Shown here: in pieces, positions 6,657 to 19,394 of the stretch
Layout: every line of letters starts with the position of its first letter
How positions within the stretch are numbered: the stretch's first letter is position 1
Assembly: GCF_007747995.1 (NCBI RefSeq)
Contig: NZ_CP036276.1
Span: 4,455,001 to 4,519,000, forward strand
From: Symmachiella dynata
GTDB lineage: Bacteria; Planctomycetota; Planctomycetia; Planctomycetales; Planctomycetaceae
Reading direction: 5' to 3'
Length of the DNA stretch: 64,000 nt
Notes under the pieces: model-generated
Databases searched by the model: none
What the model was told of the DNA's origin: nothing
Seen by the model: only the letters and a program-made list of their open reading frames with translations
Position numbers and translations under genes: made by a program

Positions 6657-7961
6657 TCAATGATCAAACAGCGACTCACTCCCAAGTACCAACCGCGCCA
6701 TCCGCTCTGCCTCCGCCGTTTCGATATCGTCGGGGACATCCTGGCCGGTGGTCAAATAGCTGACCGGTGCCTCAATCTTCCGGGCTGAGGACAACAATGC
6801 CCCCATGCCGGCTGCCTCATCAAGCTTGGTGAGAATCACCGATGTCGTTCCGGCCACCGCAAATTGCCGAGCAGTCGTTTCCAAACTACGTGCACTCGCC
6901 ACCAAACTCATCACCAAATGCACTTCGTCAACCTTGGCCTCTAACAAGAAGTTCTGCAACTCTTGAATCTTAGGTTCGTCACGTGGACTACGACCGGCTG
7001 TGTCAATCAGCACGAGATCCAACCCGGACAACTCATCCATCGCCCGCCGCATCTCCAAAGGACTAGTGACAACCTTCATCGGCAAATCAATAATCTCGGC
7101 ATAGGTCCGCAGTTGCTCCACAGCGGCAATCCGATAGGTATCGACGGTCACCAAACCCATGCGAATTCCATCACGCAGACGAAAATTCGCCGCCAACTTC
7201 GCAATGGTCGTCGTCTTCCCGACTCCCGTAGGACCCACCAAGGCAACCGTTCTGCGTTGCCCGGGCGTGACGCGAATCGGACCGCTGCAATGCAGCTCGT
7301 TTTGGACCATCTGTGACAAACGCGCCTTGGCGAGTTGCACGTCCTGCAACTCCTCGTCAGTACACTCCGCCTTTAGGCGACAAACCATTTCCTGAGCCAG
7401 TGTGTCCTCGACTTCACCGTCGATCAATTCCGCATAGAGATGAAACAAATCACTTGGAACCTCATCGCTACGTCGCGCCGCCGCGGTTTGACTCAGCGAC
7501 TTGACCATCTGCTCAATCGATCGCAACTGGCTCGAAATCGGCGACGAATCCGCAGCTTGCGAACCCGAGGGCTGCGACACAACTGACGGCAATTCCCTCT
7601 CCGTGACTGGCTCACGCGTCGGAGCCGGCGGCGGTGAGAGCAATTCCGGCGACGGTGCAAACACCTCCGGAGCCGCCGTTCGCGACAAATCGATCTCCAG
7701 CGACACACCGCCGTCATCAACAGGAGCCTTCGGCGGCGAGGCGACTGCGGCGGGTTGAACCGCGCGTGCAGCGGGTGTCCGCACATTCACGCCAGTCCCG
7801 GCAGTGACTTCTACACGCTGGCTGGTACGCCGCCATTTGAGAAACCGCGGTTGCGGGATCTCGCGTGTGTGCAAAATCACCGCATCAGGGCCCAATTCGC
7901 GCCGCACGACATCCAATGCCTGCTGCATTGTTTCCGCTCGATAAGTCCGCACATCCGCCAT
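6657..7961 (-). CDS. flhF: Flagellar SRP-like GTPase FlhF
   Basis: This 434-residue SRP-family GTPase places the flagellum, usually at a pole. It has the typical N-terminus MADVRTYRAETMQQALD, a variable Pro/Ser-rich basic B region (about 55-150), and a C-terminal NG domain: G1 VGPTGVGKTTTIAKLA, G2 DTYRIAAVEQL, G3 LIDTAGRSPRDE and G4 TKLDEA. Length matches the family. It lies between flhA and flhG in a common operon with short gaps. Confidence 0.96.
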   Translation of the reverse strand: MADVRTYRAETMQQALDVVRRELGPDAVILHTREIPQPRFLKWRRTSQRVEVTAGTGVNVRTPAARAVQPAAVASPPKAPVDDGGVSLEIDLSRTAAPEVFAPSPELLSPPPAPTREPVTERELPSVVSQPSGSQAADSSPISSQLRSIEQMVKSLSQTAAARRSDEVPSDLFHLYAELIDGEVEDTLAQEMVCRLKAECTDEELQDVQLAKARLSQMVQNELHCSGPIRVTPGQRRTVALVGPTGVGKTTTIAKLAANFRLRDGIRMGLVTVDTYRIAAVEQLRTYAEIIDLPMKVVTSPLEMRRAMDELSGLDLVLIDTAGRSPRDEPKIQELQNFLLEAKVDEVHLVMSLVASARSLETTARQFAVAGTTSVILTKLDEAAGMGALLSSARKIEAPVSYLTTGQDVPDDIETAEAERMARLVLGSESLFDH

Positions 7962-8028
7962 TGTCTAGATTCCTTCCAATTCTCACTTCGATCCGCTGAA
8001 CTCCGGGACACCCCCAACGGGGCCGTGG

Positions 8029-10149
8029 TTAGCCGGCCGATGCTGCGCCGGCACCCGCAACAGCTTCCACGCCAACCTGACCGATCGCCTCCACCTGTGT
8101 ATCTCGCGTAATTTCGTTCAAACTCAAAACCGCCAACGACGGCAACACCGCAGACGTAATCTGCTTGAGCGTCGCTCGAATCTGTGGGCTGACCACAATC
8201 ACCGGCTGATGACCCGCTGCCGTCAGACGCTGCAACTCCTCAGCCACTCCACGCGTGACCGCTTCGGACACCTGCGGCGAAAGCTTCACCACCGTGCCAC
8301 GCTCACCATGTTCGATCCCCGCCGCGACGAGATCCTCGATCGCCGGATCCATCGTAATGACTCGCAATACGCGATTCTTATCGCGCAACTGCTGACAAAT
8401 CTGCCGCGACAACCCGTGCCGGACATACTCAGTCAGAATGCCTGTATCCTTCGTCCGATCCGCCCAATCCGTTAACGACTCCAGAATCGCCTCCAAATTG
8501 CGAATCGGCACCTGCTCGCGCAACAGATTCGTCAGCACTTGATGCACTTGCGACGTCTTTAACAGGTCAGGAATCAACTCTTCGACCACCTTGGGAGACC
8601 GTTCCTTCAAATTATCAATCAATTGATGCACTTGCTGCCGCGACAACAACTCGTCGCTGTGCTGGCGGACAACTTCAGTCAAATGCGTGACAATCACCGC
8701 CGCCGGCTCAATCACGCTATAACCCATCAACTCTGCCCGCTCCCGCTGTCCGCTTTCAATCCAGACCGCCGGACGCCCAAACGCCGGCTCAACGGTTTCC
8801 ACGCCGGGAACCGTCCCGTTGGTCGCACCGGTATCGATCGCCAACAACCCGTCCGGATACGCATCGCCCCAGGCCACCGCCACATCGTTGATCTTGACTT
8901 GATACTGCCGCTGCTCGAGACGGATATTGTCGCGAATCCGCACCTTCGGCAGAATGATCCCCAACTCCTGCGCCACTTTGTGCCGCACCCGCGTCACCCG
9001 ATCCAGCAAATCGCCGCCCGAATTCACGTCGGCCAAACGGATCAAACCAAAGCCCAATTCCAACTCCATCGGATCAACCAGCAAGTTGTCCTCAGGCTTC
9101 GGCTCCGGCCGTGCCTTCTCTTCTTTTTCCGCATCTGCAGCAACCTGGGCTACCGCTTTATGTTTACGACTTGTCGTGAGCGAATAACCCACACCGGCAC
9201 ACGCAGCCCCCAAGATAAACAACGGAGGCCCCGGCAAACCGGTAAACGACAATGCCACCAAAAACCCGGCAGCAATCCACATCGCTTGAGGCGAACTAAA
9301 GATTTGCCCCACCATGTCGCCCGAAAGGTCACTGTCACTCGACGATCGCGTAATCAACAAGCCGGCTGCTAATGAGATCAAGAACGCCGGTACCTGACTG
9401 ACCAACCCGTCGCCGATCGTCAATTTCGTAAAGGTTTCGATCGCCACCCGAAATGTCATGTCGTTTTCGACCATACCCATGTAGATCCCGCCGACCAAGT
9501 TGATCAACGTAATCACAATCCCGGCAATCGCATCACCACGGACAAACTTACTGGCACCATCCATGGCCCCATAGAAGTCCGCTTGCTGCGAGATCTCTTC
9601 CCGCCGCACTTTCGCCTGCTCGGCGCTAATAATTCCGGCGTTCAGATCGGCATCGATGGCCATCTGCTTACCCGGCATTCCATCCAACGCAAACCGGGCC
9701 GCTACTTCACTAATCCGCGTCGCCCCCTTGGTGATCACCAAGAATTGAATCACGACGATAATAATAAAGATGATCAGCCCCACCGCCACGCTGTCGCCGG
9801 CGACAAACCGCTGAAACGAGGCAATCACCTCTCCGGCGGCAAACTCACCATCGCTGGCACCACGCGTTAAAATCAACCGTGTCGAGGCCACATTGAGCAC
9901 CAACCGCGCCAACGTGGTACCCAACAGCAACGCCGGGAAGACACTAAAATCGAGCGGTTTACGGGCATAAATCGTAGTCAGCAAGACCACAGCACCGACG
10001 GTCAAGTTGCAAGCCAGCAACACGTCCATCGTCCACGCCGGCAGCGGGACCACGAACACAAGGATCGAGGCAAAGATGACCAGCGGGAAGATGAGTTCCC
10101 GATACTTAGCCCACATGACTTCCAAACGATGAGACGCCGCAGTTGGCAT
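8029..10149 (-). CDS. flhA: Flagellar export-gate protein FlhA
   Basis: This 706-residue integral membrane component of the flagellar type III export gate has about eight transmembrane helices in the first ~330 residues and a large cytoplasmic domain that docks chaperone-substrate complexes. The conserved cytoplasmic loop between helices is visible (EVAARFALDGMPGKQMAID, then the AGIISAEQAK region), which is the FHIPEP-family hallmark. The ATG at 10149 has GGGAGG upstream. A charged spacer (about 335-360) joins the two halves. It is the first gene of the flagellar run; fliF, flhB and other structural genes lie outside the window. Confidence 0.96.
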   Translation of the reverse strand: MPTAASHRLEVMWAKYRELIFPLVIFASILVFVVPLPAWTMDVLLACNLTVGAVVLLTTIYARKPLDFSVFPALLLGTTLARLVLNVASTRLILTRGASDGEFAAGEVIASFQRFVAGDSVAVGLIIFIIIVVIQFLVITKGATRISEVAARFALDGMPGKQMAIDADLNAGIISAEQAKVRREEISQQADFYGAMDGASKFVRGDAIAGIVITLINLVGGIYMGMVENDMTFRVAIETFTKLTIGDGLVSQVPAFLISLAAGLLITRSSSDSDLSGDMVGQIFSSPQAMWIAAGFLVALSFTGLPGPPLFILGAACAGVGYSLTTSRKHKAVAQVAADAEKEEKARPEPKPEDNLLVDPMELELGFGLIRLADVNSGGDLLDRVTRVRHKVAQELGIILPKVRIRDNIRLEQRQYQVKINDVAVAWGDAYPDGLLAIDTGATNGTVPGVETVEPAFGRPAVWIESGQRERAELMGYSVIEPAAVIVTHLTEVVRQHSDELLSRQQVHQLIDNLKERSPKVVEELIPDLLKTSQVHQVLTNLLREQVPIRNLEAILESLTDWADRTKDTGILTEYVRHGLSRQICQQLRDKNRVLRVITMDPAIEDLVAAGIEHGERGTVVKLSPQVSEAVTRGVAEELQRLTAAGHQPVIVVSPQIRATLKQITSAVLPSLAVLSLNEITRDTQVEAIGQVGVEAVAGAGAASAG

Positions 10150-10412: not shown

Positions 10413-11339
10413 ATGCCCGATACCCCCGCCACCAAAAAACTCACCGGCCACACCGCTCCGGTGTATGTCGTTGAATATCTCAAATCCAAACCGCAACTCC
10501 TCAGCGGCAGTTTTGACAATACGCTCCGACTGTGGGACACTGCCACGCTGAAACCGCTGGAGACGTTCGGTGGGCATACCGATTTGGTGCTGGCCGTCTC
10601 AATAGCGCCCGATGACAAAACGGCTGCTTCCGGCTCGCAGGATAAAACGATCCAACTCTGGGCGCTCCCCGATGCTCCGCCCGAAGATCCTAACGCACCG
10701 CTCAAGCCGACCGGCGAACTGAAAGGGCACGCGTCGCAGGTCTACAGCGTTGCCTTCAGCTCCGACGGCAAAACGCTCGCCTCCGCCTCAGCCGACAAGA
10801 CCGTGCGTCTGTGGGACATCGCCACGCTCAAAGAAATCCGTGCATTGCCCGAACAAGGCGGCCCGGTCTATAGCGTCGCTTTCAGCCCGGACGGCCAAAC
10901 CATGCTCACCGGCGGCGGCGACAAAACAGTCCGCCTCTACAATGTCGCCGACGGCAAAGAACTGCGGCAATTCCCCGGCGCCGAGGATGCGGTCTATACC
11001 GTCGCGTATCATCCCGACGGAAAAACCATAGCAGCTGCGGGGCTGGACAAGGTCGTACGCACCTGGAATGTCGATTCGGGCGAACCGGCAACAGTCTACA
11101 GCGGCGCGCGAGGCGACATCTATCGCGTGCAATACAACAGCGACGGCAGCCAACTGATGGCGGTCACCTACGCCGCCAACCTCGCCATTTGGAACACGGC
11201 GGACGGCAAACTGCACTTTCAAACGGACCTTCCCGGACGCACCACCTACGGCGCCGCCTGGTCCCCCAACGCCCAACAAATCGCCATCGCCGCCGAAGAC
11301 GGCAACGTCTACCTAATCGACTTGCCAAAACCTGCGTAG
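10413..11339 (+). CDS. Seven-blade WD40 repeat protein
   Basis: The start at 10413 gives a 308-residue protein made entirely of WD40 repeats. Seven blades can be counted from their ends: LRLWD, IQLWA, VRLWD, VRLYN, VRTWN, LAIWN and VYLID, each preceded by a G/A-S-x-D-like turn. One closed propeller is expected. There is no signal peptide or membrane segment, so it is cytoplasmic. Such stand-alone propellers act as protein-protein platforms; partners cannot be inferred here. The open frame upstream to 10329 is not convincing protein. It is divergent from flhA with a ~260-bp gap that holds only a short inverted repeat. Confidence 0.92.
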   Translation: MPDTPATKKLTGHTAPVYVVEYLKSKPQLLSGSFDNTLRLWDTATLKPLETFGGHTDLVLAVSIAPDDKTAASGSQDKTIQLWALPDAPPEDPNAPLKPTGELKGHASQVYSVAFSSDGKTLASASADKTVRLWDIATLKEIRALPEQGGPVYSVAFSPDGQTMLTGGGDKTVRLYNVADGKELRQFPGAEDAVYTVAYHPDGKTIAAAGLDKVVRTWNVDSGEPATVYSGARGDIYRVQYNSDGSQLMAVTYAANLAIWNTADGKLHFQTDLPGRTTYGAAWSPNAQQIAIAAEDGNVYLIDLPKPA

Positions 11340-11351
11340 CGGCGATCATTG

Positions 11352-11552
11352 ATCTGCGCCAAAAAAGGCCGCGCGCAAAGACGCCAAGCCGCAAAGGGTT
11401 GTCCTGCGAAGAGAATCAATTCATTAACACCGATTCCCTTCCCGAGCAGTACGGCGGGAGACTTGCATTCACAATGCATCTTCAAACGCGGCGCGGCAAT
11501 ATCACCACTTTCCTTCTTTGCGGCTCCGCGTCTCTGCGCGCGACCTTTTCGT
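11352..11552. repeat. Inverted pair of short-period (CGCAAAGA-like) repeats
   Basis: The left arm (about 11365-11400) is a run of units like GCGCAAAGA / CGCCAAGC / CGCAAAGG. The right arm (about 11512-11552) is the reverse complement of the same type (GCGCAGAGA / CGCGGAGC / CGCAAAGA). A ~115-bp unique spacer lies between. It occupies the whole gap between the convergent WD40 and plsC genes. No ORF inside is convincing. Confidence 0.75.
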
Positions 11553-11596
11553 AGCAACCAAAACGCGTCACAAATTACTGTGCCCCACGATAGACG

Positions 11597-12235
11597 CTAC
11601 CAAGTTTGTGCAGGCATTTCGCCCGCGAGGGCTTCGATGCGGCCCGTCATTTCGTCCATGAAGGAACCGCGTTCGCCCGTCCAGCGAAACGACTCTCCCA
11701 CGAACACATCGCAGAAGAACGGAACAAGCAGCGCTTCGCCGCGCGGCAGCGCCTTGCCGAAACCGTGCATGAAAATCGGGACCACATCCACATCCGGGTG
11801 CCGTTTCGAAATGTGGGCGACGCCCGTTTTAAAGGTCTCGATCTGCTCCGGTTCGCCGCGGGTCCCTTCGGGAAACAGAATCACGATTTGATTCTTCTCA
11901 ATCGCCTCGTTAATCGGCGCCAATGGATCGCGCCGTGCTGTTTTCACCTGCCGCTGTAGCGGAATGATGCCGATGATCTGGGTCGCGAACCATTTCAGCA
12001 AGCGGTTACGAAAAAAGTAATCCGCCGCCGCCACCGGCTGCACGTGCCGCAACTCCCGCGTGCTATACAATGTCATCAACGCCAACGCATCGAGATGGCT
12101 ATTGTGATTCGCCACAATCACCGCCGGCCCCGACCGCGGCAACCGCTCCGCATGCCGCACGTTCATGCCCAAAATAATCAGCATGATCGGCCGCACCACA
12201 ATCAAGAAAAACAACGCTCGCAAGAAATGATTCAT
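11597..12235 (-). CDS. PlsC-type lysophospholipid acyltransferase
   Basis: This 212-residue membrane-bound acyltransferase is expected to acylate lysophosphatidate or a similar lysophospholipid. The catalytic HX4D motif is ANHNSHLDALAL, and the second signature is FPEGTRGEPEQ. The N-terminus has a hydrophobic anchor (about 4-25). It is the first of five lipid genes in 11.6-18.4 kb and lies 150 bp downstream of the CdsA-like gene on the same strand. In that context it probably supplies phosphatidate for the CDP-diacylglycerol synthase beside it. Confidence 0.93.
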   Translation of the reverse strand: MNHFLRALFFLIVVRPIMLIILGMNVRHAERLPRSGPAVIVANHNSHLDALALMTLYSTRELRHVQPVAAADYFFRNRLLKWFATQIIGIIPLQRQVKTARRDPLAPINEAIEKNQIVILFPEGTRGEPEQIETFKTGVAHISKRHPDVDVVPIFMHGFGKALPRGEALLVPFFCDVFVGESFRWTGERGSFMDEMTGRIEALAGEMPAQTW

Positions 12236-12271
12236 ATGCTTTCGCTGCTGAAAAGTACACCACGGCGGGAA

Positions 12272-12358
12272 TTAGACTGTAGGCTGTAGACTCTAGACTG
12301 TAGGGTTGCACGATCAGATCATTTCCTACGGCCTACGGTCTAAAACCTAAAGCCTTTT
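12272..12358. repeat. Inverted pair of heptamer (TAGRCTG-like) repeats
   Basis: The left arm reads as heptamers TAGACTG, TAGGCTG, TAGACTC, TAGACTG, TAGGG. The right arm, on the complementary strand, reads TAGGTTT, TAGACCG, TAGGCCG, TAGG. The spacer is about 25 bp. It lies between the acyltransferase and the CdsA-like gene. The T-run at 12355-12361 follows the right arm on the plus strand. Confidence 0.8.
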
Positions 12359-12385
12359 TTTGCCTCCGTGGTGATGATGTCGTCG

Positions 12386-13366
12386 TCAAAAATAAAGATG
12401 ATACACAAAGTGAAAAAACAACGGAGCGGTGTAAGTCAAACTGTCTGCCCGATCCAAGATACCGCCGTGGCCGGGAAGAATGCTGCCGGAATCTTTGACG
12501 CCCAGATCGCGTTTGATCGCCGAGATGGAGAGGTCGCCTAGAAACCCGGCAACGCCGATCAACAGACCGGCCAGCAAGGACCACTTCGCATCCATCAACG
12601 TCAACCGCGGACCGATCAGCCAGGCCAACACGACCGTCGTCGCCACGCCTCCTAAAAAGCCCTCGACCGTTTTGCCGGGGCTGACGTTGGGAGCGATCTT
12701 GTGTCGGCCCAATGACTTGCCCCAGACGAACTGGGCGACATCGCCTAACTGCGTGAGCACAACCAGAAAAATCAACAACCCCGGCCCCGGTTGGAGCGCC
12801 GCTTCCACGCTCGGCCATGCCGGTGCAGCGCGGCCCGTTTCGACCGGTTTGAGCACCAACAAATAGGCGGCGTGTGACAGGCTGAACACGGTCGTCATCA
12901 GCCCCCAATGCACGACTCCGGCCGAGCACAAAAATCCCTCGGTGCGGCCGGTGAAGACCATCCGGGTGGGGATCAATAAAAACATGTACACCGGAATGAA
13001 GATGATGAACATCCCGTACCATGACAGGTGCACCCAATAGAACTGCAGCGGAATGCTCAAGTAGGCCCAAAACAGCACGCGGCGATCGGCGCGGCGGGTC
13101 GGAATCAGCGACAGATATTCCTTGAGAGCCAGAAAACTGACAAAGCCCAGGAAGCACAGAAACCCCCATTCCGGCAGCGCCAACGAAATGCCAAACAGCC
13201 CGGCAATGATCCACCACGTCCGCGTCCGCTTGACCAATTCGCTGTGATCGCGCTGCGGCCGGAATTTGCAAACGGCAAAGACCAACACCGAAGAGACGAC
13301 CAAGACCCCCAAAATCCCACCGAGCGCGACACGAACTTCGGGCGTAAGATGATCGAACAGGTGCAT
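12386..13366 (-). CDS. ynbB: Phosphatidate cytidylyltransferase, YnbB/CdsA family
   Basis: This 326-residue polytopic enzyme converts CTP and phosphatidate to CDP-diacylglycerol. The family signature runs from GDVAQFVWGKSLGRHKIAP through SPGKTVEGFLGG to the C-terminal GDLSISAIKRDLGVKDSG and LPGHGGILDRADS, carrying the Asp residues that bind metal. About eight hydrophobic helices are visible. The YnbB label rests on the company of YnbA-, YnbC- and YnbD-like genes; the housekeeping cdsA would be expected elsewhere. An overlapping 377-codon frame (12333-13466) is only a shadow. Confidence 0.9.
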   Translation of the reverse strand: MHLFDHLTPEVRVALGGILGVLVVSSVLVFAVCKFRPQRDHSELVKRTRTWWIIAGLFGISLALPEWGFLCFLGFVSFLALKEYLSLIPTRRADRRVLFWAYLSIPLQFYWVHLSWYGMFIIFIPVYMFLLIPTRMVFTGRTEGFLCSAGVVHWGLMTTVFSLSHAAYLLVLKPVETGRAAPAWPSVEAALQPGPGLLIFLVVLTQLGDVAQFVWGKSLGRHKIAPNVSPGKTVEGFLGGVATTVVLAWLIGPRLTLMDAKWSLLAGLLIGVAGFLGDLSISAIKRDLGVKDSGSILPGHGGILDRADSLTYTAPLFFHFVYHLYF

Positions 13367-13572
13367 CCTGAAAATCCTTTACCATTTCGCCGCTATAGGA
13401 TGTGCGGCATGGACGTCCGGGTTGTTTCAAGGCGTGCATGGTAACGATTTCCTGTTTGGCCTGCATGTCTTAGGAGACAGCAGAATCAGATTGTTTGCGA
13501 AGATTGATTGGGATAGGCTGAGAAGTATCGGCAACCAGTGAATCGCCCAATGCCTAATCCAGGACGCTCACC

Positions 13573-14502
13573 ATGACGGATGAATCCTCAAAACGCCGAC
13601 GCATGCGAATTCGTTTGTTGTTGCTATTTGCCATTTTATTGTTTGTCGTTTGCGCGCCGTGCTTTATGGGTTGTCCGTGGATTGGACGACATATTTATTG
13701 CAACCCGCTGACCGTCGACAAAATTGAGCAGTTGGGGGGATCCGTGGAAGGAATCCAAATTGGTAATCGTCCCTGCCAAGAAGTAGTAACAATCAAGCTC
13801 GACAATACGGCGTTTGATAATGCGGAAATGCATCGACTCCAAGACTTAGGATACCTTGAGGAACTATCGCTCAATAACACTCCGGTAACGGACGCTGGCT
13901 TAGCAAATCTCCAACAACTCACAGGGCTAAAGTCACTCGCACTTTCCGACACGCAAGTTACCAGTGCAGGATTGAACCACATCAAGAGTTTGAACAATTT
14001 GATATCTCTTCACCTGAGCCAGACGCTTGTTGATGATGGCGGATTGCAAAACCTTCGTGAAATGAAAAAACTGCGAATCCTATCGCTCAGTAATACTCAA
14101 GTAGGCGACGCGGGTTTGGAGAACCTCGAATCGTTGACAGACCTCCATCAGTTGTGGCTCGACGAGACTGAAGTTAGCAACACAGGACTGGTCCACCTCC
14201 AAGGGCTAACGAAGCTCGTTTTTCTCCAGTTGAACAACACCGGGATCGGTGATGCAGGATTAGAACGACTGAGCGGACTGACAAATATGTGGTCATTGCT
14301 CCTTCACAATAATCAAATCACCGACAAAGGTTTGGATGCTCTTACGCATATGAGCGAGCTTCGATATCTTCGACTCGATGGCAATCAAGTCACTGAAGTT
14401 GGATTTAAGGATTTGCAGCAGGCACTTCCCGGCTGTCAAATTTATTGGAAGGCGCCACCTCGTGCCCCACTCACCCCTCCCGCACCGCCATCGACACACT
14501 AA
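13573..14502 (+). CDS. Leucine-rich-repeat protein with N-terminal anchor
   Basis: The 309-residue product has a hydrophobic N-terminal segment (about 14-32) followed by roughly eight ~24-residue leucine-rich repeats of the type LxxLxLSxTxVxDAGLxxL, for example LYLEELSLNNTPVTDAGL-like units, ending in a Pro-rich tail. It is probably exported and membrane-tethered, with a binding role. The gene is visibly more A+T-rich than its neighbours. It sits on the opposite strand inside the lipid cluster, separating the acyltransferase/CdsA pair from the YnbC/YnbA pair, and its 3' end overlaps the next gene by 32 bp (14471-14502). These facts suggest a later insertion. Confidence 0.9.
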   Translation: MTDESSKRRRMRIRLLLLFAILLFVVCAPCFMGCPWIGRHIYCNPLTVDKIEQLGGSVEGIQIGNRPCQEVVTIKLDNTAFDNAEMHRLQDLGYLEELSLNNTPVTDAGLANLQQLTGLKSLALSDTQVTSAGLNHIKSLNNLISLHLSQTLVDDGGLQNLREMKKLRILSLSNTQVGDAGLENLESLTDLHQLWLDETEVSNTGLVHLQGLTKLVFLQLNNTGIGDAGLERLSGLTNMWSLLLHNNQITDKGLDALTHMSELRYLRLDGNQVTEVGFKDLQQALPGCQIYWKAPPRAPLTPPAPPSTH

Positions 14503-16261
14503 AAATCCCCTCATCATCCACCAGCGTCTCCAACTTGCGAAATCCCGCCGCCGCCACCAACTGATCCATCTCCACCTGCGTGCGACAGCGCATCACCCAG
14601 GGGTCGCCGTCGCGGTTGGGTAACACGCGGGCAATCATTTCCTGCTGGGGGTGCCACGGCTGATTTGTGTACAGCAACAATCCGCCCGCGGGAATCGCCG
14701 CTGCCAGACCACGGAGTGACTCGCGAATTGGGCCGTTATCGGGAAACAATTCGTACAGCCCGCTGACCACAGCGATATTCGGCCGCGGCGTTTGTGCAGC
14801 GATCGCGTCCGCATCAAACGCGTCGCTTTGGCGATAATCGACCGATGTGATGCCCATCGATTTCGCCAACGCGCGGCCCCAATCCAAACCGCCAACGTCT
14901 CGATCGCACAATACGGTCGACATTTCGACGTCCGCGTGCCGCTGGATCGCCTCCAAGACATACCGTCCCGGTCCGGCAGCAATATCAAGCAACCGCACCG
15001 CTTCGCCGCGCTGGGCCGTTCGCGCGATGGCCCGATCCAACAGTTCAAGCATATGCACCTTGCGCTGCCGAATTCCCCGCCAACCGGGAGAATCCAGATA
15101 GGCCCGGTCAATCATCCGCCCAATGAACGTCGTCCCCTCTGCCCGGTTGCGATAGACATGGTCCAAAGATTCGCCAGAATCAAACCCGGTCCGCCAACCA
15201 ATACGCACCCCGCGACTCAATCGCCCCCCGGTATTCATACCCAATTTTTGGAGGGCATACGCCCACCGTTTCGGGGAGAGCAGCGAAAGCGGTTGCTCCA
15301 AGTCGTCGCAGATCGATTTGGAATACCCCGACTTGTCCGCCTCCAATAAGGACGCGACCGGTGCCGGGTCCTCGAATTGTCGCTCAATAAATTCCCGCGT
15401 CCGTGCGATCGGCAGGTCGCGTTCTTTTTCCCAAAATGTGGAGTGGTAAAACGACGGATACACTTCCCGCTCTTTGACGGCGGACCCGAGCCGATCAAAA
15501 AACTGCTGCTGTGGTTTTGATTCCACCACATAGTCAGCACTGGACGACAGTAACAACGTCGGTGCCACAATCGCGCCGGCGTCTTCGATCAATCGTGTGG
15601 ACGTATGGTGTACATCCAACAGAATGTTCGTGGCGATCTGCGGCGTGATCAATTCATCGTCGGCATACAATTGTGCTTGCTCTTGATCGTGCGTCAGCAT
15701 TCGCGGTTTGACGTAACTGCGAATGAATGACTTGGGCTTTACCTTTCGCAATAATCGCAACCCGGCAATGGCCCCAGGAACATAGAGCTTAATCCGCAGC
15801 GCCGGGGTCGCCAGGACCATCGCCCGTATCGGCGGCGCGTAATCGTGCACCCAAGCGGCCGCCAACACGGCGCCCACGCTTTGAGCGACAACGGCCATGT
15901 CGGCAACGGCAATCCCATGCGTTACCGAGAGATGCCGAACAAATTCATCGGCATCGCGAACCATGCGTCCAAAGCTTTCCGCATAACCTCGTTCGCCCGG
16001 CGAACGACCATGTCCGCGCGCATCGAAGGCAAAAAACCAAGTCTCCTCCATCCCGATGCGGTCGACAACATCCTGCCAGCGGCCTGAATGTTCATGCCCC
16101 CGATGAAACAGCAGCACCGCTTGTGAGGATTTCCCCTGCGGCGCCCACGCCCGATAAAACAACTCAGTGCCGTCACTGGTCGTGAAACAATGTTCCGACG
16201 CAATGCGGGTTGCCGGAAGTTGCGTGGATGTGTTTTCGATTTCCGCAATCAGAGTCGCCAT
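14471..16261 (-). CDS. ynbC: Fused alpha/beta hydrolase - SAM methyltransferase (YnbC-like)
   Basis: The 596-residue protein is a natural two-domain fusion. Residues ~20-300 are a monoglyceride-lipase-like alpha/beta hydrolase: oxyanion region LFHRGHEHSGRW (51-62), nucleophile elbow VAQSVGA with Ser128, candidate acid D243 (SADYVV) and candidate catalytic His273 (FYHSTFW). Residues ~330-596 are a class I methyltransferase with motif I LLDIAAGPGRY (424-434). E. coli YnbC has the same fusion and nearly the same size. The two halves suggest hydrolysis and methylation acting on one lipid intermediate; the substrate is unknown. It overlaps the convergent LRR gene by 32 bp and lies 68 bp after the YnbA-like gene. 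Confidence 0.92.
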   Translation of the reverse strand: MATLIAEIENTSTQLPATRIASEHCFTTSDGTELFYRAWAPQGKSSQAVLLFHRGHEHSGRWQDVVDRIGMEETWFFAFDARGHGRSPGERGYAESFGRMVRDADEFVRHLSVTHGIAVADMAVVAQSVGAVLAAAWVHDYAPPIRAMVLATPALRIKLYVPGAIAGLRLLRKVKPKSFIRSYVKPRMLTHDQEQAQLYADDELITPQIATNILLDVHHTSTRLIEDAGAIVAPTLLLSSSADYVVESKPQQQFFDRLGSAVKEREVYPSFYHSTFWEKERDLPIARTREFIERQFEDPAPVASLLEADKSGYSKSICDDLEQPLSLLSPKRWAYALQKLGMNTGGRLSRGVRIGWRTGFDSGESLDHVYRNRAEGTTFIGRMIDRAYLDSPGWRGIRQRKVHMLELLDRAIARTAQRGEAVRLLDIAAGPGRYVLEAIQRHADVEMSTVLCDRDVGGLDWGRALAKSMGITSVDYRQSDAFDADAIAAQTPRPNIAVVSGLYELFPDNGPIRESLRGLAAAIPAGGLLLYTNQPWHPQQEMIARVLPNRDGDPWVMRCRTQVEMDQLVAAAGFRKLETLVDDEGIFSVSMAVREG

Positions 16262-16329
16262 TGTCTTTGTCCCCTCAAAACTAGGTCAAGTTGCCTGTTA
16301 AGAGAGGGGCGCAGACAGGTAGCCGTATA

Positions 16330-16977
16330 TCACGCGGAATTTGGAGAATTCTCCCCATTTTCAGACGATGCCGCCCGTACTTCCGCCAAACCATGACGGG
16401 CGCGGTTCACGATCGTCAATATAAGCAGAACAATCGCGGCGATGAGCAAGCCGTCCAACCACCGCCCGGTCTTCACACCACAGCCGAGCAACAAGCCAAT
16501 GAAGCCAAACAAAAACGCACGATCGCTCTTCCCCAAGGGACCGTCATAGCGCCGCTCGCTCCCGATTTGCACCGCGATCACGCCGGTCATCTCGCTGATA
16601 ATGCCTTCAATCACCACCAGCACCACCAACGCCGGGTGCACGCCTGGTACCAGCGCGAACGGCAGATACAGCGCAGCATCGGCGATCACATCTCCCAATT
16701 CATTCAGGATCGCCCCCAGCGGCGATTTCATGCCGTGTTCGCGAGCCAACATGCCGTCAACCGCATTGAGCGCCATCCGCACGAATAAAAACGGCGGTAC
16801 CAATAGCAGCGGCCACCGTCGTTCCGGGTAAATCGCAATACAAGCCCCAACTGCAATCGACAACACGGCCGCCGCCACGGTGACCTGATTGGCCGTCACG
16901 CCCGCCGCCGCTAATCCGCGTGTGATCGGTCGTAACAGCGATTGGAACCGCGGCTTCAAATCGTAAATGCTCGGCAT
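16330..16977 (-). CDS. ynbA: CDP-alcohol phosphatidyltransferase (YnbA-like)
   Basis: This 215-residue integral membrane enzyme is expected to transfer a phosphatidyl group from CDP-diacylglycerol to an alcohol. The family motif is present as NAVDGMLAREHGMKSPLGAI followed by LNELGD: N71, D74, G75, A78, R79, G88, N92, D96. In the canonical D-x2-DG-x2-AR-x8-G-x3-D-x3-D motif the first and third Asp would be at 71 and 92; here both are Asn. Spacing is intact, so a variant metal site is more likely than decay. It is divergent from the YnbD-like gene, and both start within ~130 bp, so they probably share a control region. Confidence 0.93.
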   Translation of the reverse strand: MPSIYDLKPRFQSLLRPITRGLAAAGVTANQVTVAAAVLSIAVGACIAIYPERRWPLLLVPPFLFVRMALNAVDGMLAREHGMKSPLGAILNELGDVIADAALYLPFALVPGVHPALVVLVVIEGIISEMTGVIAVQIGSERRYDGPLGKSDRAFLFGFIGLLLGCGVKTGRWLDGLLIAAIVLLILTIVNRARHGLAEVRAASSENGENSPNSA

Positions 16978-17109
16978 AGTTTTCCCATGATATTTGTCAT
17001 TTCACCGCGTCCTAACGAGGGGCGGGCAGCCCAGTCGCTCACTATAGCATGTCCAAACCGCTGCGCAATATTCACAAACCTTGCCCCACCAAATTCCATC
17101 AAGGCAATC

Positions 17110-18441
17110 ATGAGCAACCAATCTACCAAGCATTATCGATCCGATGCCCCGCTATGGAAACAAGCGGCACTCGCCTCCGCTGGGTTGTCGCTGGTGTTCA
17201 TGCTGGTTTATATGACAACAAACTACATCTCGTCGCTCCGCAGCGACGTGGGAACATGGTACTACGACTGGGAACAGATCATTCCATTTGTGCCGATGAT
17301 GATCATTCCCTATATGTCGATCGACCTGTTTTTCATAGCCGCTCCGTTTCTCTGCCGTGATCGTGCGGAACTGCGAATCTTGTCTCGGCGAATTTTGCTG
17401 GCCATTCTGTTAGCAGGTGGTTGCTTTTTGCTGTTCCCACTGCAATTGGCCGTCGAGCGTCCACCGGTCTCAGGGATGCTGGGAGAATTGTTCAATCACT
17501 TTCGCCAATTCGACCTACCCTACAACCTTTGCCCGTCGTTGCACATCGCGCTTCGAAAGATTCTTGCCGTGCATTACGCGCGGCACACCCACGGGGCGGT
17601 CCGCTGGGCTTCGAACTTCTGGTTTAGTTTGATTGGCCTGTCGACATTGCTGACTTATCAACATCATGTCGTCGATGTCGCCGGCGGTTTCGTTTTAGCC
17701 GCAGTCTGCTTCTACCTCGTCCGTTCGACGCCGTTCCGATTACCGGTCGAGCAGAACAGGGCTGTCGGACGGCGGTATGCCTGCGGTGCGTTCGCCTTGG
17801 CCGTTATCGGGATCGGATTCGGTTCGTGGGGGCTTTGGTTATTGTGGCCGGCCGTTTTGGCAGGATTGATCGCTGCGGGGTATTTCGGCATCGGACCAGG
17901 AATTTTTGACAAGCGCGGCGGGCAACTGCCATTCAGTTCGAGGCTCATCCTGGCGCCGATGTTATTCGGGCAATACCTATCGTGGTTACATTACCGCCAA
18001 GAATGTCGTTCGTGGGACAGCGTGACCGAACAGCTTTGGATTGGCCGACGATTGACGGCCCATGAAGCCGACGAGGCGATTAGCGCAGGAGTCACCGCTG
18101 TCGTCGACCTGACCGTTGCATTCTCCGAACCACTCGAATTGCAACGGCTAGATTACCTGCCCCTACCAGTCTTAGATTTGACTGCTCCTACACAGGAGCA
18201 ACTCGAAACGGCGGTTCAGTTCATCGAAATTCAGGCGCAGCACGGAGTCGTTTACGTGCACTGCAAGATCGGCTATTCCCGTAGCGCCGCCGTAGTAGGA
18301 GCTTACCTGCTACATACCGGCATGGCCCGTAACGCAGATGAGGCCATGGCGCAGTTGCGTGCGGCACGTCCAACGATCATGATCCGCCCCGAAGCAGAGG
18401 CAGCCATTCGTGGTTATCACACAGCAAAGCTGGGGGCGTGA
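17110..18441 (+). CDS. ynbD: PAP2-like membrane domain fused to dual-specificity phosphatase (YnbD-like)
   Basis: The start at 17110 has AAGG just upstream and gives 443 residues; the open frame to 16942 overlaps ynbA antisense. The N-terminal ~270 residues are polytopic with PAP2-like motifs PSLH (142-145) and TYQHHVVDVAGG (H185/H186, D189). The C-terminal ~140 residues are a dual-specificity phosphatase with the signature HCKIGYSRS (Cys385, Arg391) and general-acid candidates upstream. E. coli YnbD has the same fusion. A likely task is removal of phosphate from a phosphatidyl-alcohol phosphate, as PTPMT1 does for phosphatidylglycerol phosphate, but this is inference. It is transcribed away from ynbA. 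Confidence 0.93.
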   Translation: MSNQSTKHYRSDAPLWKQAALASAGLSLVFMLVYMTTNYISSLRSDVGTWYYDWEQIIPFVPMMIIPYMSIDLFFIAAPFLCRDRAELRILSRRILLAILLAGGCFLLFPLQLAVERPPVSGMLGELFNHFRQFDLPYNLCPSLHIALRKILAVHYARHTHGAVRWASNFWFSLIGLSTLLTYQHHVVDVAGGFVLAAVCFYLVRSTPFRLPVEQNRAVGRRYACGAFALAVIGIGFGSWGLWLLWPAVLAGLIAAGYFGIGPGIFDKRGGQLPFSSRLILAPMLFGQYLSWLHYRQECRSWDSVTEQLWIGRRLTAHEADEAISAGVTAVVDLTVAFSEPLELQRLDYLPLPVLDLTAPTQEQLETAVQFIEIQAQHGVVYVHCKIGYSRSAAVVGAYLLHTGMARNADEAMAQLRAARPTIMIRPEAEAAIRGYHTAKLGA

Positions 18442-18455
18442 AATGATGGACCAAT

Positions 18456-18496
18456 AAAAAAAGGAACTCCCCTCCCTGTCAAGAGAGGCGAGTTCC
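18456..18496 (-). terminator. Rho-independent terminator of Gly-rich protein gene
   Basis: On the minus strand a hairpin with stem arms GGAACTCGCCTC and GAGGGGAGTTCC (one mismatch) is followed by seven T. It lies about 40 bp after the stop of the 18537-19394 gene. Confidence 0.85.
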
Positions 18497-18536
18497 TCGA
18501 GTTCCGTGAAATCTGTGCTGTGCCAATTGCGTGCAA

Positions 18537-19394
18537 CTACTTTTCGTCGTTGTAGGTCCGCACGCTGTCTCCGCCTTCTTTGGCTTTTTCTTCTTCACGT
18601 TCCTTGGACTTGGTCACCGCTACGGTTACCAAACCTTGAGCTGCTTGGAGTTGACGACCGCTGAAGTACGGCGTGTCCGGACGTCCGATGCGATCAAACT
18701 TCTTTTGCGCCAATTGCTGCCAGCTCATATCGTTGGCAAGATGCCACGCAGCTGCCTGAACGGCGGCAAATTCGCTGTTGCCACGGCTCGAACCATAGCT
18801 TTCCACCAATTCCAACAACGGTCCGTTGCTGGTGAATTCTTCCAATGGTTTGATTTCATATTCCATTTTGGGACGCGGTTCGGCTTTGCCATGTTCGAGG
18901 CAAACCGTTTTGATTTTGATCTTCGCGGTTTTTTCAGCAGGAACGGAAAACAATCCGTTACCACCACCGCCACCACCAAATCCGCCGCCGCCACCGCCGA
19001 ACCCGCCGCCGCCGCCAACCGCTTGGCCGCCACCGCCGCCTTGTCCGCCGAAGCCTCCACCGCCACCGACATTTCCACCGGCCCCACCAATTTGTTTCAT
19101 CACGTGCACAGCCGCGAATGCCTTCGGCATTTGGACCGTCAACGGCTTGTCGCTCGTATTGGTGATGAACAGGTTTCCGCCTTTGGAGTCTTTGGCAATG
19201 TACGAAACGTCCAGTGACTTCTGTTCGATCCCATCAAACAGCGGCACGACATCCGCAGTCGGATCGAGGGTCAATTTGGTAATGGCTCGGGATTTCGACG
19301 CCCCTGTGAGCGTGACAACACCGGCGATTGATAAACAAGTCATCAATAACGCGGTTCGTCCCCGAAACGGCTTGCTAAGGAATCGCGGCAACAT
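18537..19394 (-). CDS. Secreted protein with long Gly-rich segment
   Basis: The 285-residue protein begins with a basic, then hydrophobic leader (about 10-32), consistent with a signal peptide. A beta-rich stretch (about 40-100) is followed by a Gly-rich run at 103-146 with Phe, Gln and Asn interruptions, then a C-terminal part containing AVQAAAWHLANDMSWQQLA, a motif I associate with planctomycete hypothetical proteins. The Gly-rich run is encoded by repetitive GGN codons, so its length could vary by slippage. No enzyme motif is seen; it may be an envelope-associated structural protein. It has its own terminator. Confidence 0.85.
   Translation of the reverse strand: MLPRFLSKPFRGRTALLMTCLSIAGVVTLTGASKSRAITKLTLDPTADVVPLFDGIEQKSLDVSYIAKDSKGGNLFITNTSDKPLTVQMPKAFAAVHVMKQIGGAGGNVGGGGGFGGQGGGGGQAVGGGGGFGGGGGGFGGGGGGNGLFSVPAEKTAKIKIKTVCLEHGKAEPRPKMEYEIKPLEEFTSNGPLLELVESYGSSRGNSEFAAVQAAAWHLANDMSWQQLAQKKFDRIGRPDTPYFSGRQLQAAQGLVTVAVTKSKEREEEKAKEGGDSVRTYNDEK

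Follow-up and report, generated by a model that had tools for sequence, protein, structure and literature searches.

A YnbABCD-like gene set with PlsC in Symmachiella dynata, a candidate pathway for a modified phospholipid

Four genes of Escherichia coli K-12, ynbABCD (b1408-b1411), are the closest described relatives of the gene set reported here; all four lie on one strand, and among the open-licence literature matches listed none assigns a product to them or to their families. Better characterized enzymes resemble the individual proteins. The solved structures closest to YnbA are the phosphatidylinositol phosphate (PIP) synthases of Mycobacterium tuberculosis (MtPIPS) and R. salmoninarum (RsPIPS), the dual-specificity phosphatase (DUSP) domain of YnbD resembles PTPMT1, the mitochondrial phosphatidylglycerophosphate (PGP) phosphatase, and the first half of YnbC resembles monoacylglycerol lipases (MGLs). 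A Bacteroides inositol-lipid cluster uses a CDP-alcohol phosphotransferase to make a phosphorylated lipid that is then acted on by a phosphatase, the inositol phosphate being made locally, and we propose the same phosphotransferase-then-phosphatase logic for the present set. It lies in a 64,000-nucleotide stretch of the Symmachiella dynata genome (contig NZ_CP036276.1, positions 4,455,001 to 4,519,000; hereafter the window), and consists of five lipid genes encoding PlsC, a YnbB-type CDP-diacylglycerol synthase (CdsA), YnbC, YnbA and YnbD.

A preliminary description of the window had placed all five genes and likened four of them to ynbABCD, including the two unusual fusions, hydrolase-methyltransferase in YnbC and PAP2-DUSP in YnbD. 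All five are present, with their domains confirmed by Pfam (Table 1), and BLAST comparison with the K-12 operon bears out the likeness at 34-49% identity over nearly the full length: CdsA matches E. coli YnbB (45% over 290 aa), and YnbC, YnbA and YnbD match their namesakes (49% over 580 aa, 46% over 194 aa and 34% over 405 aa, respectively). Judged by sequence, the four window genes are thus near-full-length orthologues of ynbABCD that are encoded together. The two loci have in common the four orthologues, both fusions and similar gene sizes, whereas the E. coli operon lacks a PlsC gene and the window has a divergent YnbD and an intervening leucine-rich-repeat (LRR) gene. The host genome, a single contig of 7.77 Mb, has a second CdsA besides that of the set, together with two other CDP-alcohol phosphotransferases, both with canonical aspartates and by eye resembling PgsA and PssA, which indicates that the set is additional to the housekeeping genes. 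We consider it somewhat better than an even chance that these genes form a dedicated pathway, apart from the housekeeping phospholipid genes, whose product is a minor and modified glycerophospholipid.

To see how widely the set occurs, one genome per species was scanned with two short peptide patterns, yielding 437 YnbC relatives, of which the best 80 were kept (71 Pseudomonadota, 45 of them alphaproteobacterial, three Planctomycetota, three Acidobacteriota and three others). Within 5 kb of YnbC in these best 80 of 437 loci we found YnbA in 78, YnbD in 77, PlsC in 56, CdsA in 55 and all four in 52; when thinned to 31 loci differing by more than 20%, the counts are 29, 28, 26, 26 and 23, respectively. 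Homologue matches below 50 bits were ignored, and because some loci are short contigs these numbers are lower bounds. Gene order differs between loci. Among 24 loci without a linked CdsA, eight genomes, mostly Rhizobium, were searched, and all eight have an unlinked YnbB-type CdsA elsewhere (42-56% identical to the L013 protein), with PlsC directly before CdsA in all four rhizobial loci fetched from that search.

Genome-wide searches agree with this linkage. Methyltransf_20, the family of the YnbC methyltransferase half, was matched at E values up to 1e-20 in 10 of 369 genomes of the class of Limnobaculum (a gammaproteobacterium, genome G460), and at least one further set gene lies within the 3.8-3.9 kb examined in all nine carriers other than G460, which was left out of that count as it had been chosen as a known carrier. 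In Planctomycetota the family is present in 11 of 392 genomes, including the host, with the full domain in seven. A YnbD profile, for which at most four candidates were scored per genome, matches 31 of the 392: 22 in the DUSP half only (full or partial), four in the PAP2 half only and five in both. All five with both halves (G000, G430, G271, G415 and G212) also match Methyltransf_20, G415 over 58 positions only. The YnbABCD-type set is thus patchy in distribution but travels together, and its presence in distant phyla upholds the earlier suggestion that it is either old or widely transferred. There are also two partial YnbD relatives: an 834-aa frame at L146 (141-2642) with a YnbD-like PAP2 stretch in mid-protein and an N-terminal part that by eye resembles a fatty-acid desaturase, and a host protein (G000:C1:5381599-5382186, locus L002) that resembles the C-terminal half of YnbD, including the DUSP, at 34%.

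Separate inheritance of the five genes, which the preliminary description had named as the outcome that would speak against their belonging together, was tested and did not occur, whether by linkage, evolutionary distance or trees. Every pair of genes shows co-varying distances, and in 999 permutations none reached any observed value. Among thinned loci that have the complete five-gene set (26 of 51, with L011, L092, L138 and L141 barred), r is 0.92 for YnbC-YnbD, 0.97 for CdsA-PlsC and 0.42-0.60 for pairs with YnbA; a wider test excluded homologues covering less than 80% of the profile and the duplicates L001, L085, L086, L087, L132 and L133, and was thinned at 15% difference. In a quick tree of YnbC (38 thinned rows of 90) the window protein lies among planctomycetes and L005, and E. 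coli YnbC lies inside the proteobacteria; we therefore reject the idea that the set passed recently between the E. coli and planctomycete lineages. In the other four gene trees the two rows nearest to the window are planctomycetes or the metagenome contig L005. This contig is labelled Deltaproteobacteria and its YnbC is 76% identical to that of the window; it is possibly a misbinned planctomycete.

YnbA and YnbC form one uninterrupted frame in two lineages, a Planctomycetia genome (L006/L137) and an Acetobacteraceae contig (L046), an arrangement classically taken to indicate successive reactions. Both sequences come from metagenome assemblies, and an internal start might still allow the two parts to be translated separately. 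The set is co-inherited, and it is highly likely that its genes act together.

The most informative of the proteins is YnbA. Window YnbA scores above the PF01066 cut-off (35.9 versus 22 bits) and contains the motif N71-x2-D74-G...G88-x3-N92-x3-D96-x3-D100, together with R153 and R192. This departs from the canonical signature of CDP-alcohol phosphotransferases, D1-x2-D2-G-x2-A-R-x8-G-x3-D3-x3-D4, in that D1 and D3 are Asn in all 33 YnbA members; D2, D4, both glycines and the alanine are kept in 33 of 33, as is a further aspartate, Asp100, and the arginine in 27. Sequence conservation therefore marks YnbA as a variant lineage of this family and not a canonical member. In a hand-read alignment R153 (33/33 members) and R192 (32/33) fall on R155 and R195 of MtPIPS, both of which are assigned by mutants to the phosphate of inositol phosphate in the available part of the MtPIPS study (PMC4634129), where D1-D3 are described as binding metal and K135 is placed by the inositol ring. 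The position of K135 is Gly or Ala in YnbA (G132 in 33/33, or position 135 in 31/33) and that of S132 is Gly or Glu129 (30/33), depending on the register of a low-confidence HMMER alignment in which the Mt and Rs enzymes are three residues apart.

Of the named family models, the best for YnbA are archaetidylinositol-phosphate synthase, which matches all 33 members at E values up to 0.001, and PIP synthase, although the window protein reaches only 69 of 180 and 45 of 170 bits, respectively, and 15.8 of 350 bits with the Bacteroides model (NCBIfam PIPSynBT1523). The pgsA model TIGR00560 gives 20 bits against a cut-off of 109, and matches 23 of the 33 members at E values up to 0.001. A search for inositol-1-phosphate synthase (PF07994) found none in the host or the E. 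coli control and none in 28 of 30 YnbC-carrying genomes, a sample that includes draft and metagenome assemblies; the other two, both Acidobacteriota (L012 and L016), have it. This supply agrees with a non-inositol acceptor. YnbA thus shares with the PIP and archaetidylinositol-phosphate synthases the two arginines that hold the phosphate and differs in its metal ligands and in the lost ring lysine, and we read it as probably using a phosphorylated acceptor other than inositol phosphate.

YnbC joins two enzymes. The first half of its AlphaFold model (pLDDT 92.4) matches human MGL and M. tuberculosis MGL (Rv0183) in Foldseek, with TM-scores by target of 0.81-0.90. Ser128, Asp243 and His273 are invariant in 28 YnbC rows (His273 is kept in at least 90% of a wider set of 34), and from their positions we take them to be the catalytic triad of MGL. 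Where such enzymes usually have the nucleophile elbow GxSxG, window YnbC has AQSVG, with Ser128 and Gly130 invariant in 34 rows; this motif and the fusion to a methyltransferase set it apart from the lipases. The second half is a class I methyltransferase (PF12147, 8.3e-119) with the S-adenosylmethionine (SAM) motif D426-x-A-x-G430, whose three named residues are invariant in 34 rows. Four loci, including two from planctomycetes, have a second methyltransferase gene, of O-methyltransferase type, next to YnbC (L038 11737-12720, L072 11817-12788, L140 7005-7979 and L142 5676-6692), which favours a methylated product. Standalone relatives of the methyltransferase (L157-L159) have no shared neighbours by eye in the list of frames, which were not family-scanned. 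At L159 (2662-4790) a 437-aa frame that by eye is hydrolase-like and a YnbC-like methyltransferase are two adjacent genes with no fusion.

The grouping of the YnbC hydrolase with monoacylglycerol lipases, and the two phosphatase sites of YnbD, would also suit lipid salvage or remodelling, in which the phosphatases and the lipase dismantle lipids and PlsC and CdsA rebuild them. Disruption of E. coli ynbC is reported to cause accumulation of polyphosphate, the only phenotype of this gene that we came across and an effect that the authors tie to cell stress and to which polar effects may contribute (PMC2435150, available in part), and this too could be counted for salvage. However, salvage leaves a dedicated phosphotransferase and methyltransferase, as well as the second methyltransferase in four loci, unexplained, and we regard it as unlikely, if the strongest of the alternatives to a dedicated pathway.

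The AlphaFold model of YnbD (pLDDT 91.9) has eight long helices, taken as membrane-spanning, followed by the C-terminal DUSP. With the usual PAP2 topology as reference and the N-terminus taken to be inside, the PAP2 motifs are predicted to lie outside and the DUSP inside, with which the loop charges agree weakly. All three PAP2 motifs (R-P, P-S-x-H and H-x3-D) are intact in window YnbD; Pro118, Ser143, His145, His185 and Asp189 are invariant in 25 YnbD rows, the arginine of the first motif is not, and PAP2_3 and PAP2 match 23 and 19 of 24 members, respectively. Against solved structures the PAP2 domain has weak matches to phospholipid phosphatases, and hydrolase and transferase both fit. The DUSP has the expected fold with HC-x5-R, and its Cys385, Gly388 and Arg391 are invariant in the same 25 rows. 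PTPMT1 (3rgo) is its top Foldseek match and fourth of 120 by sequence, and YnbD differs from it by the fusion to a PAP2 membrane domain.

This resemblance raises a back-up phosphatidylglycerol route, with YnbA as a second PGP synthase and YnbD as a PTPMT1-type phosphatase. The phosphate-binding arginines of YnbA would suit it, and glycerol-3-phosphate is a common metabolite. We nonetheless judge it improbable, since the pgsA model is weak on YnbA and matches fewer members than does archaetidylinositol-phosphate synthase, and such a route needs no lipase-methyltransferase. Moreover, in the available part of a complementation study, which does not say if the protein was produced, E. coli YnbD, with or without inducer, did not rescue a strain lacking all PGP phosphatases, nor did it restore growth without undecaprenyl-pyrophosphate phosphatases (PMC7413402).

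The DUSP could instead be a protein phosphatase and the genes not form one route, their substrates being unrelated. DUSPs with protein substrates fit YnbD almost as closely as PTPMT1 does, and gene order varies. We give this little credence in view of the adjacency of the genes in most loci, the co-variation of their distances, the YnbA-YnbC single frames and the finding of whole YnbD only where Methyltransf_20 was found.

It is very unlikely that the set serves, by way of YnbB, to supply a glycolipid (MPIase in E. coli, for example) and not a new phospholipid. Overproduction of YnbB raises MPIase, and YnbB is no substitute for CdsA, but deletion of ynbB gave no significant change in MPIase in the part of that study available (PMC6362211). 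Among the recurrent neighbours, not all of which were family-scanned, we saw no glycosyltransferase-like group by eye. Phosphatidylinositol synthesis, with YnbA as PIP synthase and YnbD as its phosphatase, has on its side the best named models, the closest solved structures, the two genomes with inositol-1-phosphate synthase and conceivably imported inositol, but was set aside as scarcely credible given scores far below the curated cut-offs, the loss of the inositol-ring lysine and the failure to find the synthase in the host, E. coli and 28 of 30 YnbC genomes.

Returning to a dedicated pathway, we infer its reactions, their order, the membrane topology and the novelty of the product from gene content, orthology, co-inheritance, active-site conservation, the YnbA substitutions and arginines, predicted folds, and the finding of no inositol-1-phosphate synthase. 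PlsC would form phosphatidate, which the YnbB-type CdsA would convert to CDP-diacylglycerol. YnbA would then move the phosphatidyl group onto a small phosphorylated alcohol, X-P, other than inositol phosphate, giving phosphatidyl-X-phosphate, from which the cytosolic PTPMT1-like DUSP domain of YnbD would strip the phosphate to leave phosphatidyl-X. The YnbC methyltransferase may methylate the headgroup, its MGL-like domain removing or transferring an acyl chain, and the PAP2 domain of YnbD, with its site predicted on the outer face, may act on this lipid, once flipped, or on a flipped by-product. The preliminary description had joined the activities into a similar route. The arginines with which PIP synthase binds phosphate, retained in YnbA, now strengthen the case for the order given there, from phosphatidate through CDP-diacylglycerol and phosphatidyl-alcohol phosphate to a dephosphorylated lipid; the methylated or deacylated product at the end of that route stays a proposal.

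Several observations weigh against this pathway, beginning with YnbA itself. With the metal aspartates D1 and D3 replaced by Asn, the enzyme might have low activity, depend on a different metal or serve another function. The motif containing R155 can likewise be aligned in CEPT1, an enzyme whose acceptor is a lipid (PMC4634129, in part), so that a kept arginine is no proof of a phosphorylated one, and beside the uncertain K135/S132 stretch lies a conserved Arg142 (32/33). YnbA is also the gene that correlates least well with the others, its place in the tree, with proteobacterial rows beyond the two nearest, lacks starred support, and the distance statistics as a whole ignore host relatedness. 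For YnbC, a methyltransferase fold is not among the 50 matches listed for the model, and sequence matches of this half to solved structures are weak (best 1.5e-7). The lead of PTPMT1 over DUSP23 for the YnbD phosphatase is narrow (E of 1.6e-7 versus 2.1e-7), and YnbD is missing from loci L038 and L072, with no match in genomes G241 or G075. Lastly, YnbA is replaced in L011, L092 and L138 by a divergent relative that is 24-26% identical.

These relatives belong to a distant group with the same Asn pattern, found in clusters in L011, L092 and L138 and also in L161 and L163, and adjoining PlsC and CdsA in L161, L163, L138 and L140 (a longer stretch of L092). In rhizobia, a second YnbA-like gene with this pattern precedes PlsC and CdsA away from ynbACD (L163 231-857; L161 3038-3817). 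This suggests that the phosphotransferase lineage, PlsC and CdsA form a core module and that YnbC and YnbD are additions to it.

All five set genes fit within 7 kb of the window, and they are not one operon, YnbD being divergent from YnbA and the LRR gene separating CdsA from YnbC. The start of YnbD is likely the ATG at 17110, the open frame itself opening at a TTG at 16942. The LRR gene is antisense within the set and shares 32 bases with the end of YnbC. The arrangement recurs in a sister species (G001, L135), whose LRR protein is 90% and whose set proteins are 88-97% identical, so the insertion predates the split of the two species. No match to the LRR gene was found in L006, L007, L011, L136 or L137, and we regard it as unrelated to the pathway.

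A sigma-70 scan of 11300-18700 gave five sites against 4.0 (sd 2.4) in shuffles and nothing linkable to the genes; promoters are presumed in the YnbA/YnbD intergenic region. A repeat scan of the same interval likewise found nothing linkable to the set genes. An inverted repeat of 34 nt, 88% complementary with arms 119 nt apart, lies at 11363-11549, just beyond the 3' end of plsC.

Table 1. Features of the lipid gene set in the window, with examples of the sixth gene from other loci
Feature	Coordinates	Strand	Details
PlsC-type lysophosphatidate acyltransferase	11597..12235	-	212 aa; Pfam PF01553 3.7e-24; HNSHLD (H-x4-D) and FPEGTR motifs intact
YnbB-type CDP-diacylglycerol synthase (CdsA)	12386..13366	-	326 aa; Pfam PF01148 4.1e-62; CdsA signature matched
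Leucine-rich-repeat (LRR) protein	13573..14502	+	Pfam LRR families; outside pathway count
YnbC, hydrolase-methyltransferase fusion	14471..16261	-	596 aa; Pfam Hydrolase_4 and Methyltransf_20
YnbA, variant CDP-alcohol phosphotransferase	16330..16977	-	215 aa; Pfam PF01066
YnbA/YnbD divergent intergenic region	16978..17109	.	Sequence read; both promoters presumed here
YnbD, PAP2, two more helices and DUSP (predicted cytosolic)	17110..18441	+	443 aa; Pfam PAP2_3 and DSPc
Sixth gene (YnbX), examples	L015 13117-13560; L077 14185-14595; L020 13073-13504		

In many loci a sixth gene, which we call YnbX, follows directly after YnbD (67 of the 80 loci and 21 of the 31 thinned ones). Its product is membrane-like, divergent and small (about 140 aa), with Leu16, Asp74, Asp96 and Arg117 invariant in 21 rows, and none of three members scanned matches a Pfam family. 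The three Planctomycetota loci among the 80 lack the gene, nor was it found in six planctomycete genomes by a profile search that had no positive control. In one unclassified bacterium (L072), a TMEM164-family protein (1.8e-34) and an MMPL-family transporter lie beside the lipid cluster, at 7461-8180 and 13372-15591.

E. coli K-12 is among the organisms best studied for phospholipid synthesis, but for these four of its lipid-enzyme genes we found no product among the open-licence literature matches listed. Tentatively, and with rather less than even confidence, we suggest that YnbA is the first recognised member of a separate lineage of CDP-alcohol phosphotransferases, in which Asn occupies two of the metal-ligand positions and the acceptor is a phosphorylated non-inositol alcohol. 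Together with the two-faced phosphatase YnbD and with YnbC it would make a class of methylated phospholipids that lipidomics has missed and that E. coli K-12 has in common with planctomycetes, acidobacteria and rhizobia. The residues of YnbA make the question of its acceptor directly testable. If the product is found, it would bring a new headgroup to bacterial membrane chemistry, and with it a CDP-alcohol phosphotransferase that works with Asn in its metal site.

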